Assembly (NCBI GenBank): GCA_020629635.1
Contig: JAHDCX010000012.1
Span: forward strand, 1 to 44,149
Direction of reading: 5' to 3'
Length of the DNA: 44,149 nucleotides
DNA from: Acidimicrobiales bacterium
GTDB taxonomy: Bacteria > Actinomycetota > Acidimicrobiia > Acidimicrobiales > SHLQ01
The stretch's first letter is position 1, and every line of letters starts with the position of its first letter. This document shows, in pieces, positions 38,493 to 44,149 of the stretch. Both the position numbers and the translations under genes were made by a program. Below the pieces are notes generated by a model. It saw nothing but the letters and a program-made list of their open reading frames with translations. It had not been told where the DNA came from and searched no databases.

Positions 38493-41400
38493 TCAGCCGC
38501 CGTCGATGGTCGCCATCACCTCGTCGCGCCGCGGACCTGATCCGAAACGACGCTCCACCTCGCTGCGCTCGGAGATGACCTTTGAGGAGCCTCCCGGCTC
38601 CATGGTCACGCCGTAGAGCGAGTCGGCGGCTTCCATCGTCCGCTTCTGGTGCGACACGATGATCAGCTGCGCCTCGGCCCGGAACTCCTCGACAAGGCTG
38701 AGGAATCGGTGCAGGTTGACGTCATCCAGGGCGGCCTCGACCTCATCCATCACGTAGAACGGCGAAGGACGGCTCCGGAAAACCGCGAACAAGAAGGCGA
38801 GCGCCGTGAGCGATCGCTCACCGCCCGAGAGCAGGGACAGCTTCTTGACGTTCTTTCCCGACGGCTTGGCCGAGACCTCGATGCCCGTCTCGAGCAGGTC
38901 ATCAGGACGGGTGAGCTTCAGCTCACCTCGACCACCGGGGAAGAGCCGTTCGAAGAGCGTCGTGAAGTTGTCGCTGACGTCGGCGTACGCCGCGGCGAAG
39001 ACCGTGACGATCTCCTCGTCGATGGCCTTGATGACCTTGTTGAGCTCTCGGCGAGACGAGCGAATGTCGTCCAACTGCTCCTTCAAGAACTCGTGACGCT
39101 CCTGAAGGGCCTCGAACTCCTGGAGCGCGAGCGGATTGATCGGCCCCATGATTCGAAGATCCCGCTCGAGCTCACGGGCACGGGCCGCTGGCGTGACGCC
39201 GTCGGCCAGCTCGGGCCGGGGTGCGGCGGTGGCGCCATTCGGGTCGATGTCGAGATCGCGCCGCAGCATCTCCGTTGTCGTCTCGAGCCGGAGCCGCGCC
39301 TCGGCCTCGTCGATCTCAACCCTGCCCTGGCGCTCGGCCACTTCGCGGAGCTCTTCTTCTCCCGCGCTGCGGCGTTTCCGGAGCGCGTTGAGCTCCTCGG
39401 TCAGCTCGCGAACTCGGGCCGATTGAGCCAATCGTTCGGCTCGCCGCGCCTCGAGATGGACCGACAAGCGGCCACGACTGTCCTCGAGAAGCGTCTGAAT
39501 CCGGATCGTGAGTCCTTCGGTGCGGTCGAGGCGTTGCCGCTTGCCTTCGGCTTCGCTCTCTTCGTGCTCGAGACGTTCGACGCGATCCTGAATCTCGCCG
39601 AGCCGCCGACGCAGAACACCACGGCGTTCTTCGAGTGCTGCGGCAGCGACCTCGTGCTCTCGGCGTTGCGCCGTGAGGAGTCGAGTTCGTTCGGCCAAGG
39701 CGTTTCGTGTGGACTCGAGCTCGCGCGATCGTTCGGCGCTCGCGACCTCTGCAGATTCAAGTCCGGGCAACAAGCCCTCGAGCTCGCCGGATCGAGCCGT
39801 CTCGCGGTCGAAACGCTGGGCGAGCTCGCTGCGCTGCGTGGCGAACGCGTCGAGCTCGATGTCGATCTGGCGGACCGATGCGTCGATTTGATGCAGCGCC
39901 TCGGTCGTGCTGGTCAGATCCGCGTCGTTGCGGTCGAGTGCTGCGGCTGCGTCTCGATCTGTCGCCGCATGCGTCTCCACAGCACTGCGAGCTCGCTCCA
40001 GAGCAGCCGAGAGATCCGCCCGCTCGTTCGTCGCCCGATCGACCGACGCTTCGGCATCATCGAGCGCGGCACGGGTCGCTCCCACGCCAGCGGCGCCGAT
40101 CCGCCACACGCCGCCGCCAACCCGGTCGCCGTCCTTGGTGACCACGATCCGGCCCGTCTGCACGGCGTGGTCGACCGCCGCTCGCCAATCTTCGTCGACC
40201 GCGTCGACGTCGGCGAGCAGTCGTCCGAGCATCGCCGAGCTCGGAGCGTCGATGCCGCGCACGTGGCGCAGCACCGAATCCGAGCCAACGTCGAAACCCG
40301 TGTCGCCGGACAGCGGCAGCACGGCACCACGTCCCGGACCTGCAGCAAAGCGCTCCAGCGCCTGGCGTGCCGACGCATCGGAGTCGACGACGACGGCCGC
40401 GAGACGGTCACCGAGTGCGGCCTCGACGGCGGCCTCCCAGCCCGGATCGATCGAGACGACATCGAGCACCGTGCCGACGACGCCATCGAGTCCTTCGAGC
40501 GCATCGGCGCCCGCCGCCGAGCGGGCGTCGGCCAACGCTTCGGCCAACGCATCACGACGAGCCGACAACGAGCGCACGACGGCATCGGATTCCGCAAACG
40601 CTGCGGTCAGGCGCTCCGCCTCGACCCGGGCCGCGTCGTGCCCCGATGCTGCGCGATCGGCCGCCTCGACGAGCGTCGCCTCCTGCTGAACGGCGGCGTC
40701 GAGCGTCGCTCGCAGGGTTGTCGCCCGTTCGCCGAGGCCCTGTTTGTCCGCAGACAGGGTCTCGACACGAGCGTCGATCGACGCAACCTCGGATTCGCCG
40801 CGCTCGATCGACGTCCGGAGCGCCGCCAACTCGCCGCGGACCTCGGCCGCTCGGCCCGCGGCCTCGGCCGTCCCGGCGCCATCGGCCATCGCGGCGAGCG
40901 CTTCGTCGAGCACTCGCCGATCCTCGGTGAGACTCGACTCGGCGCGTTGAAGTCCTTCGCCTGCCGGCACCATTGCGGACAGTTCGTCGTCGACGCCGGC
41001 GAGCTGGTCGCCGATGTCGGCGATCTCCGCCCGAAGTGCCGCCAGCACGTCGCCGTCGATCGTGGCTTGGCGCTCGCGGGCAATGCCGCCGAGGCGCTCG
41101 GCCAGAAGCTGCGCCGCCCCGGACGCACGCTGGTCGAGCCGTTCGAGACGGGTCAACGCGTCACCGAGGTCGACCGCCCCCTGCGCCGACAGGTCGCTCT
41201 CCAGCGACACGATGTCGGCATCGAGCCGGGCGAGCTCGGAACGCAATTCGCGGTCCCGAGCGGCGAGATCCCGACGATCACGTGCGGCCTGGTCGAGTGT
41301 CTTGCGATGGGATTCGACCTCGCGGCCCGCAAGCCACAGCTGGCAGGCCCGCAGCTCGGCAACGACGTCACCGTGACGACGCGCCGCGTCGGCCTGCTTC

Positions 41401-42017
41401 TCGAGGGGCCGGAGCTGGCGGCGGACCTCGCGCAACAAGTCCTGAATCCTGGTCAGGTTCGCCTCGGTGGCGAGCAGCCGCCGCTGAGCCTTCTCCCGGC
41501 GCTTGCGGTACTTCAGGACACCGGCCGCCTCTTCGATGATCAGACGCCGTTCTTCGGGCCGAGCGTTGAGCACGGCGTCGATCTGCCCCTGCGAAACAAT
41601 GACGTGCTGGGTCCGGCCAACGCCCGAATCACTCAACATCTCCTGGATGTCGAGCAGACGACACGGAACACCGTTCATCGCGTACTCCGAGTCGCCGGAG
41701 CGGAACAGCGTTCGAGTGATCTGCAGCTCGGAGAATTCCGTCGGAAGGACACCGTCGGAGTTGTCGATCGTCAGCGCCACCTCGGCACGACCCAACGCCG
41801 CCCGGTTGGCCGAACCCGCGAAGATGACGTCATCCATCTTCTGCGATCGCACCGCGCTCGGCGCTTGGGCACCGAGCACCCACGCAATGGCGTCCACCAC
41901 GTTGGACTTGCCACTTCCGTTCGGGCCGACGACGACGGTCACGCCCGGCTCGAGCTCGAGTGCGACGTTGTCGGCGAAGGACTTGAAGCCCTTCATCGTG
42001 AGTGTCTTCAGATACAC
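38493..42017 (-). CDS. smc: Chromosome segregation protein SMC
   Basis: A 1174-residue SMC. Walker A is GPNGSGKSN at 31-39, the Q-loop region is intact, two long coiled coils flank a hinge at about 505-660 (VVGTVLDVVSIDPGWEAAVE), and the C-terminal head has LSGGERSLTALA and Walker B FYVMDEVEAALDD. It organises and segregates the chromosome with ScpA/ScpB. The coiled-coil portions are Ala/Glu/Arg rich, as usual. In this genome smc is separated from ftsY by the two-component/peptidase operon. Confidence 0.98.
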   Translation of the reverse strand: MYLKTLTMKGFKSFADNVALELEPGVTVVVGPNGSGKSNVVDAIAWVLGAQAPSAVRSQKMDDVIFAGSANRAALGRAEVALTIDNSDGVLPTEFSELQITRTLFRSGDSEYAMNGVPCRLLDIQEMLSDSGVGRTQHVIVSQGQIDAVLNARPEERRLIIEEAAGVLKYRKRREKAQRRLLATEANLTRIQDLLREVRRQLRPLEKQADAARRHGDVVAELRACQLWLAGREVESHRKTLDQAARDRRDLAARDRELRSELARLDADIVSLESDLSAQGAVDLGDALTRLERLDQRASGAAQLLAERLGGIARERQATIDGDVLAALRAEIADIGDQLAGVDDELSAMVPAGEGLQRAESSLTEDRRVLDEALAAMADGAGTAEAAGRAAEVRGELAALRTSIERGESEVASIDARVETLSADKQGLGERATTLRATLDAAVQQEATLVEAADRAASGHDAARVEAERLTAAFAESDAVVRSLSARRDALAEALADARSAAGADALEGLDGVVGTVLDVVSIDPGWEAAVEAALGDRLAAVVVDSDASARQALERFAAGPGRGAVLPLSGDTGFDVGSDSVLRHVRGIDAPSSAMLGRLLADVDAVDEDWRAAVDHAVQTGRIVVTKDGDRVGGGVWRIGAAGVGATRAALDDAEASVDRATNERADLSAALERARSAVETHAATDRDAAAALDRNDADLTSTTEALHQIDASVRQIDIELDAFATQRSELAQRFDRETARSGELEGLLPGLESAEVASAERSRELESTRNALAERTRLLTAQRREHEVAAAALEERRGVLRRRLGEIQDRVERLEHEESEAEGKRQRLDRTEGLTIRIQTLLEDSRGRLSVHLEARRAERLAQSARVRELTEELNALRKRRSAGEEELREVAERQGRVEIDEAEARLRLETTTEMLRRDLDIDPNGATAAPRPELADGVTPAARARELERDLRIMGPINPLALQEFEALQERHEFLKEQLDDIRSSRRELNKVIKAIDEEIVTVFAAAYADVSDNFTTLFERLFPGGRGELKLTRPDDLLETGIEVSAKPSGKNVKKLSLLSGGERSLTALAFLFAVFRSRPSPFYVMDEVEAALDDVNLHRFLSLVEEFRAEAQLIIVSHQKRTMEAADSLYGVTMEPGGSSKVISERSEVERRFGSGPRRDEVMATIDGG

Positions 42018-42075: not shown

Positions 42076-42909
42076 TCAAACCTGGGTTTCGCAGTAGTAG
42101 GTCCAGTCGCCCTTGAACTTGGTCCGCAGGATCGGCGACCGCGAGCGCGGACTCAGCTCGCCGTGCCTGCCGTAGACCTGCAAGTGCTGGTCGAACACGC
42201 CCGGCTCGCCGAAGACGTCCACCCATGGCCGGTCCTCGAGCGACGTACCCCGATACTTGATGACGTTGTGCAGCGTCTCCACGAGTGACCGGTACAACCG
42301 ACGCACCTCCTGCGTCGACAGCGAGCTGCTCGACCGATCGAAGCGCAGGCCCGAATCGAACAACACCTCGTCGGCGTACATACCGCCGATGTCGAGGAGC
42401 GCCTTGCCGTCGGTCAGCAACTCCTTCAAGGACGCGTCGTGCGTGTCGAGCAGATCCCTGAACGCAAGCCACGACAGCGGGGTGTCGATCGGATCGACCG
42501 CCGGGTCGTTCAGCTCCGGGAACTCCGACATGATGTCGTCCTTCGGGACGACGGCAACCTCACCAGTCGCATCCGGATCGACGAAGCGAAGCTGTCCCCC
42601 CTGGGTGAACGTGATCACCATCTCGGTGCCCGGATCCTCTTTGTCCTTGTTGGCGTTGCGCCGGAGCAAACCGGTCCCCATCTTCACCACGAGAATGTCC
42701 TCGGAGTCGAGCGGGAAGAGCAGTGTGCGCGACTGGCGAACGACACCAATGATCTTCACGCCATCGAGCTGCGAGGTGAACTGCTTGCGGTTCTTGTAGC
42801 GAGGCAACACGCCCATGCCCGCCGCCGCAGCTTCCTTGACCTTCTTGCCCGTCACCTCGCGCTCGAGGTCGCGACGCGTCAGCTCGACCTCGGCCAATTC
42901 AACTCTCAT
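42076..42909 (-). CDS. MutM/Fpg-like protein lacking catalytic and zinc-finger residues
   Basis: A 277-residue Fpg/Nei-fold protein in the standard rnc-mutM-smc position. Homology is clear (VELAEVELTRRDLE at the start, LRFVDPDATGEV, DIGGMYADEVLFDSGLR, LQVYGRHGELSPRS, TYYCETQ). Functional residues are replaced: the catalytic N-terminal Pro of PELPEVE is Val and is no longer next to the initiator Met, the beta-hairpin Lys is Arg, the DPRRFG void-filling loop is DPDATG, the Asn of GNIYASE is Gly, and three of the four zinc-finger Cys are Ser, Ser and Gln. It is therefore probably not an active glycosylase/lyase and may be a DNA-binding pseudoenzyme. ATG 42909 is chosen because GGAGGG lies 6 bases before it; an ATG two codons earlier abuts that site. 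Confidence 0.85.
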   Translation of the reverse strand: MRVELAEVELTRRDLEREVTGKKVKEAAAAGMGVLPRYKNRKQFTSQLDGVKIIGVVRQSRTLLFPLDSEDILVVKMGTGLLRRNANKDKEDPGTEMVITFTQGGQLRFVDPDATGEVAVVPKDDIMSEFPELNDPAVDPIDTPLSWLAFRDLLDTHDASLKELLTDGKALLDIGGMYADEVLFDSGLRFDRSSSSLSTQEVRRLYRSLVETLHNVIKYRGTSLEDRPWVDVFGEPGVFDQHLQVYGRHGELSPRSRSPILRTKFKGDWTYYCETQV

Positions 42910-42942
42910 CGACATCCCTCCGCTGGCCCGCTCGGGGCCAGC

Positions 42943-43674
42943 TCACATCCGTGCTTCTCCATTGTCGCCCGTCTCGCCCCCGACGACACCATCGAGACGT
43001 TCGAGCGCCGCGCCTGCGGCCTCTTGCTCGGCCTGCTTCTTGGACGAACCTGCGCCCCGCCCGACATGCGGGCCAATCGTGACGACGGCCGCAAACCGCC
43101 GACCGTGGTCAGGCCCGGACGATGAGACCTCATAACGCGGTGGAGAGAAGCCCTCCGCCGCCGCACGTTCCTGGAGACGGGTCTTGTGATCGTTCTCGCC
43201 CGGGTGCTCGAGCGCCCGGATCGCATCGTCGGCCAAGAGCGTTGCGATGATCTTGCGAGCGGCGTCGATCGACCCATCGAGATGCAACGCGCCGATGACG
43301 GCCTCCATCGCATCGGCGAGGATGGAGTCCTTGTCGGCACCGCCCGACATCTGCTCGCCGCGTCCCAAACGGAGGACCTCGCCGAGGCCGATCGAACGAG
43401 CGACTGCCGCGAGCGACGGAGCACTCACGACCTCGGCCCGTGCTTTGGCCAGCACGCCCTCGCTTCGGTTCGGAGTGGCCGCAAAGACAATCTCGGTGAT
43501 CACGACACCGAGGACCGCGTCTCCCAAAAACTCGAGACGTTCATTCGACTCTCCACCGTGTTCGGCGCACCAGGACCGGTGCGTGCATGCGAGCTCGATG
43601 AGGGTCTGGTCCGTGAACGTGTGTCCGAGCGCTTCCTCGACCGACGAGAACTCGTCGGTCGATGTGTCAGCCAA
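42943..43674 (-). CDS. rnc: Ribonuclease III
   Basis: A 243-residue RNase III. The signature NERLEFLGDAVLG and the second acidic site ADAMEAVIGALHLD are present, followed by a double-stranded RNA-binding domain (LQERAAAEGFSPPRYEVSS, GAGSSKKQAEQEAAGAAL). It processes rRNA and structured RNAs. The start is uncertain. TTG 43674 overlaps the acpP stop by 8 bases and gives a sensible N-terminus, whereas ATG 43734 would lie 68 bases inside acpP. It follows acpP and precedes the mutM homologue, as usual in actinobacteria. Confidence 0.96.
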   Translation of the reverse strand: MADTSTDEFSSVEEALGHTFTDQTLIELACTHRSWCAEHGGESNERLEFLGDAVLGVVITEIVFAATPNRSEGVLAKARAEVVSAPSLAAVARSIGLGEVLRLGRGEQMSGGADKDSILADAMEAVIGALHLDGSIDAARKIIATLLADDAIRALEHPGENDHKTRLQERAAAEGFSPPRYEVSSSGPDHGRRFAAVVTIGPHVGRGAGSSKKQAEQEAAGAALERLDGVVGGETGDNGEARM

Positions 43675-43957
43675 GCCGGGTGACGACGTAGTCGACCGCG
43701 TCACGAACGGTCTTGAGATCCTCGAGATCGTCATCTTCGATGCGGAATCCGACAGAACGCTCGCCGAGCTCCTCCTCGATCGCCTCGACGAGCTCGATCA
43801 GTGCGAGGGAGTCGGCGTCGAGATCGTCCTGGAAGGAGTCTCCCTCGTTGATCTCCGACGGCTCCATTTCGAGGATCTCGGCGAGACGATCCTTGATGAT
43901 CTGAAGAACTTCGGCCCGATCGGGCTTTTCTTGCGACACGTGGGTCTCCGCTGGCAT
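43667..43957 (-). CDS. acpP: Acyl carrier protein
   Basis: A 96-residue acidic ACP. The phosphopantetheine site is DSL within DDLDADSLALIELVEAIEEE. The helical pattern before (RLAEILEMEPSEINEGDSF) and after is typical. It carries acyl chains in fatty acid synthesis. It is longer than most ACPs by an extra stretch SVGFRIEDDDLEDLKT before the last helix and an N-terminal 15-residue tail. ATG 43957 is preceded by a strong AGGGGGAG. Overlap with rnc suggests coupling. The tandem array lies 60 bases upstream, near where its promoter is expected. Confidence 0.95.
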   Translation of the reverse strand: MPAETHVSQEKPDRAEVLQIIKDRLAEILEMEPSEINEGDSFQDDLDADSLALIELVEAIEEELGERSVGFRIEDDDLEDLKTVRDAVDYVVTRLG

Positions 43958-44016
43958 TCGACACTCCCCCTCACGGGACGAACGCCGAATCGTATCGCAA
44001 ATCGTCGGCCACACCC

Positions 44017-44149
44017 GCCCTGTCTCAATCGGCGACGGCCTTGCCCTGTCTCAATCGGCGACGGCCTTGCCCTGTCTCAATCGGCGACGGCCTTGCCCTG
44101 TCTCAATCGGCGACGGCCTTGCCCTGTCTCAATCGGCGACGGCCTTGCC
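44017..44149. repeat. 26-bp tandem repeat array, about five copies, cut by window end
   Basis: Identical units with a period of 26 bases (each starts TGTCTCAATC and ends GGCCTTGCCC) begin at 44021, 44047, 44073, 44099 and 44125; the last copy lacks its final base at the window edge. All visible copies are identical. The period is not a multiple of three, so it is not coding in one frame. No unique spacers are present. It lies upstream of acpP. It may be a real minisatellite, or the end of a contig broken or collapsed at a repeat. Confidence 0.9.

Follow-up and report, generated by a model that had tools for sequence, protein, structure and literature searches.

A MutM/Fpg orthologue without most of its catalytic residues, conserved between rnc and smc in a large group of Acidimicrobiales

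The gene between rnc and smc in the window (the whole stretch of DNA analysed, 44,149 nucleotides of an Acidimicrobiales genome) encodes a full-length MutM/Fpg homologue, pseudo-MutM, from which nearly all catalytic residues have been lost; the loss has a single origin, the degenerate protein keeps the MutM fold, is conserved and stands under purifying selection, and an intact second Fpg is encoded elsewhere in the genome. Pseudo-MutM is probably the displaced orthologue of an active MutM, left at its ancestral locus and kept in a non-catalytic state, most likely as a nucleic-acid binder without cleavage.

Results and Discussion

Locus and gene order

The ORF, for which the original prediction named no strand, lies on the minus strand; the plus strand of 42076–42909 has a stop inside. 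Genes of the locus are:
42076..42915, minus strand: pseudo-MutM ORF, 279 aa from ATG 42915, 277 aa from the probable start ATG 42909
42943..43734, minus strand: rnc (RNase III), upstream neighbour, synteny conserved
43667..44014, minus strand: acpP (acyl carrier protein), synteny conserved
38493..42017, minus strand: smc, downstream neighbour, synteny conserved

Translation probably starts at the third codon, ATG 42909 (MRVELAEVE), where the interval of the original prediction also ends, because congeners begin MKVELPELE or MKAELPELE; the sequence directly upstream of the gene, gcggagggATGtcgATGagagtt, taken with the congener starts, points to the same codon. The cluster is tight and co-directional, pseudo-MutM following rnc after 33 bases and preceding smc by 58 bases. 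The order rnc-mutM-smc, reported as kept in the original prediction, proved universal: acpP-rnc-gene-smc on a single strand was found in every contig long enough.

Minor observations at the locus: the distance from MutM or pseudo-MutM to smc is wider by several hundred bases to more than 1 kb in L005, L008, L014, L021 and L103; no obvious conserved ORF was seen in the widened gap of L005, the one looked at. A perfect 26-bp tandem repeat (GCCCTGTCTCAATCGGCGACGGCCTT) occupies 44017–44149, just upstream of acpP, with 5.1 copies within the window; it runs on at 44250–44301 of contig C14, amounts to at least 7 copies in all and is absent elsewhere in the genome.

Family membership and fold

Both Pfam domains of the family were recognised in pseudo-MutM: Fapy_DNA_glyco (PF01149) at 2e-14 (54.7 vs gathering 25.5 bits) and H2TH (PF06831) at 2.8e-11 (43.7 vs gathering 34.7 bits); phmmer matched it to the MutM structure 3gpp at 6e-31. 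The AlphaFold model (mean pLDDT 94.6, pTM 0.89) could be superposed on 271 residues of MutM 1r2y (Z 32.1). Pseudo-MutM thus belongs to the Fpg/MutM sequence family, and the predicted homology along the full length was borne out.

The NCBIfam equivalog cut-offs for Fpg were not reached: NF002211, 154.6 vs 212 bits; TIGR00577, 151.3 vs 203.3 bits. Among relatives, intact copies scored 276–299 bits (pass at 212; 263–299 over the two models), pseudo copies 163–187 (fail), and the basal family f58 was borderline. Judged from these scores and from the missing Pro, Lys, Asn, void-filling residues, finger Arg and Cys, pseudo-MutM is outside the functional Fpg family.

Residues lost and kept

Residue numbers refer to the 279-aa ORF. 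The roles of the individual MutM residues are in part established knowledge of the enzyme. Roles in Bst MutM numbering were taken from PMC3188539; the N-terminal proline attacks C1' in Fpg catalysis (PMC5422863). Residue comparison gave:
42901..42903, minus strand: V5 codon, in place of the catalytic N-terminal Pro
42727..42729, minus strand: R63 codon, in place of the hairpin Lys (K60 in Bst MutM)
42565..42576, minus strand: P-D-A-T (P114–T117), from the DPRRF loop, void-filling Arg and Phe gone
42382..42384, minus strand: G178 codon, in place of the Asn of GNIY (N174 in Bst MutM)
42079..42156, minus strand: zincless C-terminal hairpin LSPRSRSPILRTKFKGDWTYYCETQV, Cys replaced by S255, S258 and T277, C275 kept

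All residue changes named in the original prediction are therefore real. The nucleophile Pro, replaced by V5 in the window copy, is absent at that place throughout the genus. Around the hairpin Lys RRGKYL reads RQSRTL; DPRRFG has become DPDATGE, with D115 and T117 at the positions of the void-filling Arg and Phe; GNIYA(S/D)E has become GGMYADE. T81, K78 and D270 mark further losses, respectively those of the void-filling Met, of a His and of the Arg with which the zinc-finger loop binds phosphate. Several lesion-flanking contacts known from Bst MutM (K60, H74, N174, R264) are missing. The acidic catalytic Glu following the Pro position is retained (E6).

C275 (42091–42093), the third zinc-finger Cys, is invariant in the pseudo copies though its partner ligands are gone.

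Spread and single origin of the loss

The copies compared came from nine congeners, from further genera of the family, from other families of the order and from named Acidimicrobiales/Acidimicrobiia assemblies, and residue states were scored in about 100 relatives, with P, E, K, M, R, F and N as the seven key residues. The losses are common to every congener that has the gene. Degenerate operon copies, with 0–3 of the 7 key residues left, occur in 20 family-level groups; in the remaining 39 groups examined nearly all copies have 7/7, the exceptions being f6 (4/7) and f31 (6/7), and the operon copies of f11 and f12 are truncated at the N-terminus.

In a maximum-likelihood tree of 80 rows, from which the trait columns had been left out, all 49 degenerate rows (49/49) fell on one side of a single branch (100/89; 100% of 200 bootstrap trees), and this clade sits inside a set of intact enzymes encoded at the same locus. 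Since all bootstrap trees show a single clade, catalysis need not have been lost several times independently; a paralogue moved into the locus is ruled out by the nesting within the operon lineage and by the universal synteny.

The decay was stepwise. The basal family f58 is intermediate: Pro is replaced by Ala and Lys by Thr, Arg and Asn are kept in some members, and the four Cys are kept. The four Cys are likewise present, with the catalytic set absent, in f3, f24, f35, f40, f42 and f44; because these families and f58 keep them, catalysis was lost before zinc. Most other degenerate families have S-x-x-S...C...S/T, the last Cys being now Ser or Thr, and f1, f34 and f54 are among those that also drop one residue next to the last former Cys. 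The zinc ligands were probably lost more than once, since f35 and f42 fall among zinc-less families.

Two further operon copies deserve mention. That of f6 (L025) keeps Pro, Glu, Lys and four Cys and has lost Met, Phe, Asn and the zinc-finger Arg; perhaps the same decay began here a second time and more recently. That of f7 (L166), of active type, has a C-terminus that seems to break off past the second zinc Cys within the stretch obtained, which may be a cut-off or a frameshift.

Selection

Nei–Gojobori dN/dS was calculated within the genus (45 pairs for the dead MutM). The medians were 0.11 for the dead MutM, 0.149 for the intact second fpg, 0.214 for rnc and 0.071 for the N-terminal part of smc, where dS often approaches or exceeds 1 and the close pairs (dS about 0.36) weigh most; the two closest congener pairs of the dead MutM gave 0.018 and 0.030. 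For other pseudo families, the median of the close pairs was 0.10. Constraint on the dead MutM is stronger than on RNase III or on the live Fpg of the same genus. With the losses in all congeners and 20 groups and with the conserved synteny, these values favour the pseudoenzyme under constraint that had been proposed from the window, and not a decaying pseudogene.

Second, intact Fpg

An intact mutM elsewhere in the genome, the search for which had been suggested, was found on contig C27 (L002/L170); it has PELPEVE, RRGKYL, DIRRFG, GNIYADE and four Cys. Further Nei/Fpg-like genes (L003, L004) are present in the same genome. Counted at E < 1e-50 over 397 genomes of the order, fpg of the L002 type occurs in 20 families, and in 19/19 of these examined the operon copy is dead; of the families without the L002 type, 38/40 keep an active-type operon copy (exceptions f58 and f6). 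By hand count 172/178 genomes that carry the L002 type still have the operon copy; of the six that lack it, most are incomplete. All key residues were intact in 47/47 L002-type loci read, once the reference and L198, which is G021's operon copy, are taken off the raw count of 49. The L002 type forms one clade (SH-aLRT 97) beside Fpgs of other phylum groups and apart from the operon lineage; repair in these genomes is thus predicted to be carried by a different Fpg lineage, acquired by transfer or left by differential loss.

The association of the L002 type with the dead copy amounts to one evolutionary event and not to twenty, because each change happened about once. Few independent events stand behind the co-occurrence, each gene type being one clade, and this counts against displacement. 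So does f58 (L149, L219, L220, L271, L272), the earliest-branching family with a degenerate operon copy, which is degenerate already without an L002-type fpg; it has a different Fpg-like gene (L271, L272) that starts PEAAEVAV, with Pro, Glu, Lys and four Cys.

One second fpg of the intact type, L191 (G014), contains an in-frame TAG within the match, which may mark a pseudogene, a read error or a late stop.

Homology-based annotation would tend to call the operon gene MutM/Fpg; since by its sequence the gene product is catalytically dead across roughly 20 family-level groups, repair capacity is misassigned. At this one locus the active enzyme, partly degraded forms and the zincless pseudoenzyme make up an ordered series of a rare kind, for which the displacing enzyme is known as well, and what a DNA glycosylase does besides catalysis becomes directly testable through it.

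Proposed function and rival explanations

The ancestral acpP-rnc-mutM-smc locus held an active MutM/Fpg, of which the present gene is the orthologue. Its base-excision machinery was lost in one ancestor within Acidimicrobiales, beginning with the nucleophile Pro and the hairpin Lys, continuing with the void-filling and Asn residues and ending, probably repeatedly, with the zinc ligands, while repair would have passed to a canonical fpg that belongs to another lineage. The old copy retains the full MutM fold and is under purifying selection, from which a non-catalytic job would follow; its H2TH helices and zincless hairpin would grip the phosphate backbone through conserved Arg/Lys, without base flipping or excision. 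Binding of the nucleic-acid backbone without lesion interrogation is the most likely activity; to the extent that sequence can show it, base flipping and excision by pseudo-MutM are ruled out.

The binding model is suggested by about 20 Arg/Lys positions conserved at 87–100% in 61 divergent pseudo copies (at 90–100% for 14, 15, 19, 25, 27, 54, 60, 86, 90, 110, 164, 194, 205, 206, 209, 220, 250, 257, 259, 264 and 266), of which many lie in the H2TH helix and the C-terminal hairpin, and a hairpin motif S-x-R-S-R-x-P is conserved across the Cys-less pseudo clade. Clearly pseudo-specific are S255, S258, Y221, T224, H244 and Y273; gained conserved residues were dropped as a pointer to function, most being already common in intact relatives. 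Active operon copies have a mean net charge of about +9, whereas that of the zinc-less pseudo copies has fallen to about −2 (window −7); the drop would fit weaker nucleic-acid binding and counts against the model. The lost lesion-flanking contacts count against it as well. As proof of lost DNA binding it was set aside, the intact second fpg of the same genus being often negative too (−11 to +5).

The fallen charge, the missing lesion contacts and the fact that rnc and smc are never separated from pseudo-MutM would also be expected of a protein–protein scaffold or regulator, in which the Fpg fold serves only as a platform for a partner, be it the SMC complex, RNase III or the active second Fpg, and nucleic-acid binding has disappeared or survives as a vestige. 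The conserved Arg/Lys are odd for a pure scaffold, and the neighbourhood counts little because intact orthologues occupy the same position; we regard this explanation as possible, with the balance tilted against it. Enzymatic activity with changed chemistry (a monofunctional glycosylase or a lyase with another nucleophile, for example) is improbable. E6, E9, E11, K164 and Y180 are kept in most pseudo copies, but the Pro has not been replaced by an alternative polar set, V, A, F, L, Y, I, R, N or T standing there in most families; where it survives, in a few families (f3 and f20, e.g.), the other residues are lacking. The Glu itself is gone in f17, f35, f51 and f57 and in single members of f25, f52 and f56, the hairpin Lys, the Asn and the zinc-finger Arg, all required for holding a lesion, are absent, and the intact second Fpg renders the activity redundant.

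A gene decaying without function at the protein level, kept only since its deletion would be polar on smc, agrees with the tight co-directional cluster. It is refuted, unless dN/dS is an artefact, by purifying selection at the amino-acid level stronger than on rnc, and it is hard to reconcile with intact frames in 20 families, a model confidence equal to that of an enzyme and the conserved new hairpin motif; we give it very little credence. Sequencing or assembly error or contamination in the window genome is practically negligible, the losses being shared by nine congeners at 75–79% identity and by many genomes of independent projects. The original prediction would have taken relatives with an N-terminal Pro and a zinc finger as a sign of such error; both are kept only in more distant families, outside the clade that shares the losses.

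The displaced, non-catalytic orthologue is thus preferred. That it founded, by displacement, an Fpg-fold pseudoenzyme family now dedicated to a partner role without catalysis in the biology of chromosomes or RNA, for example as a binder of DNA structures or RNA acting with SMC or RNase III, is a bolder proposal that we hold to be rather doubtful, and a link to the neighbour-encoded SMC or RNase III is speculative.

Comparison with known systems

A literature search found no paper on a dead Fpg in Acidimicrobiia and no description of such a clade. Precedents for dead glycosylases lie in other folds, and the clade is not a new category. With MutM/Fpg (bifunctional glycosylase/AP lyase, Bst MutM 1r2y) pseudo-MutM shares the fold, N-terminal domain, H2TH, hairpin, operon place and Glu, the intact MutM of sister families being its orthologue; it differs in having no Pro, hairpin Lys, Met-Arg-Phe triad, Asn of GNIY or finger Arg and in lacking three Cys.

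AlkF and AlkG bind branched DNA and AlkD2 binds DNA weakly, all three being glycosylase-dead homologues built of HEAT-like repeats (PMC4433238). They resemble pseudo-MutM as dead homologues long conserved beside an active one (PMC4433238), but their fold is unrelated: the model of pseudo-MutM has the MutM fold along its whole length and not a HEAT-like repeat fold. AlkD2 and AlkD are moreover lineages that have long been separate; in the present case it is the orthologue in the operon that died, and another Fpg took its place.

The NFACT-N domain of RqcH/Rqc2/NEMF is related to Fpg/MutM (PMC6514570) and is a precedent for an Fpg-related fold acting on RNA and ribosomes, not on damaged DNA. Pseudo-MutM has no NFACT-R or coiled-coil regions, and the window protein gave no NFACT_N match at E ≤ 1. 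A relation to NFACT was rejected, the matches of relatives being all sub-threshold (15.8–18.6 vs 31 bits, with 15.8 in a congener).

Zincless fingers are still functional in NEIL1, in plant and fungal enzymes and in mimivirus Nei (PMC3188539). As in pseudo-MutM, the zinc ligands are gone and the hairpin is retained; these proteins keep Pro and catalysis, whereas pseudo-MutM lost zinc after the catalytic residues.
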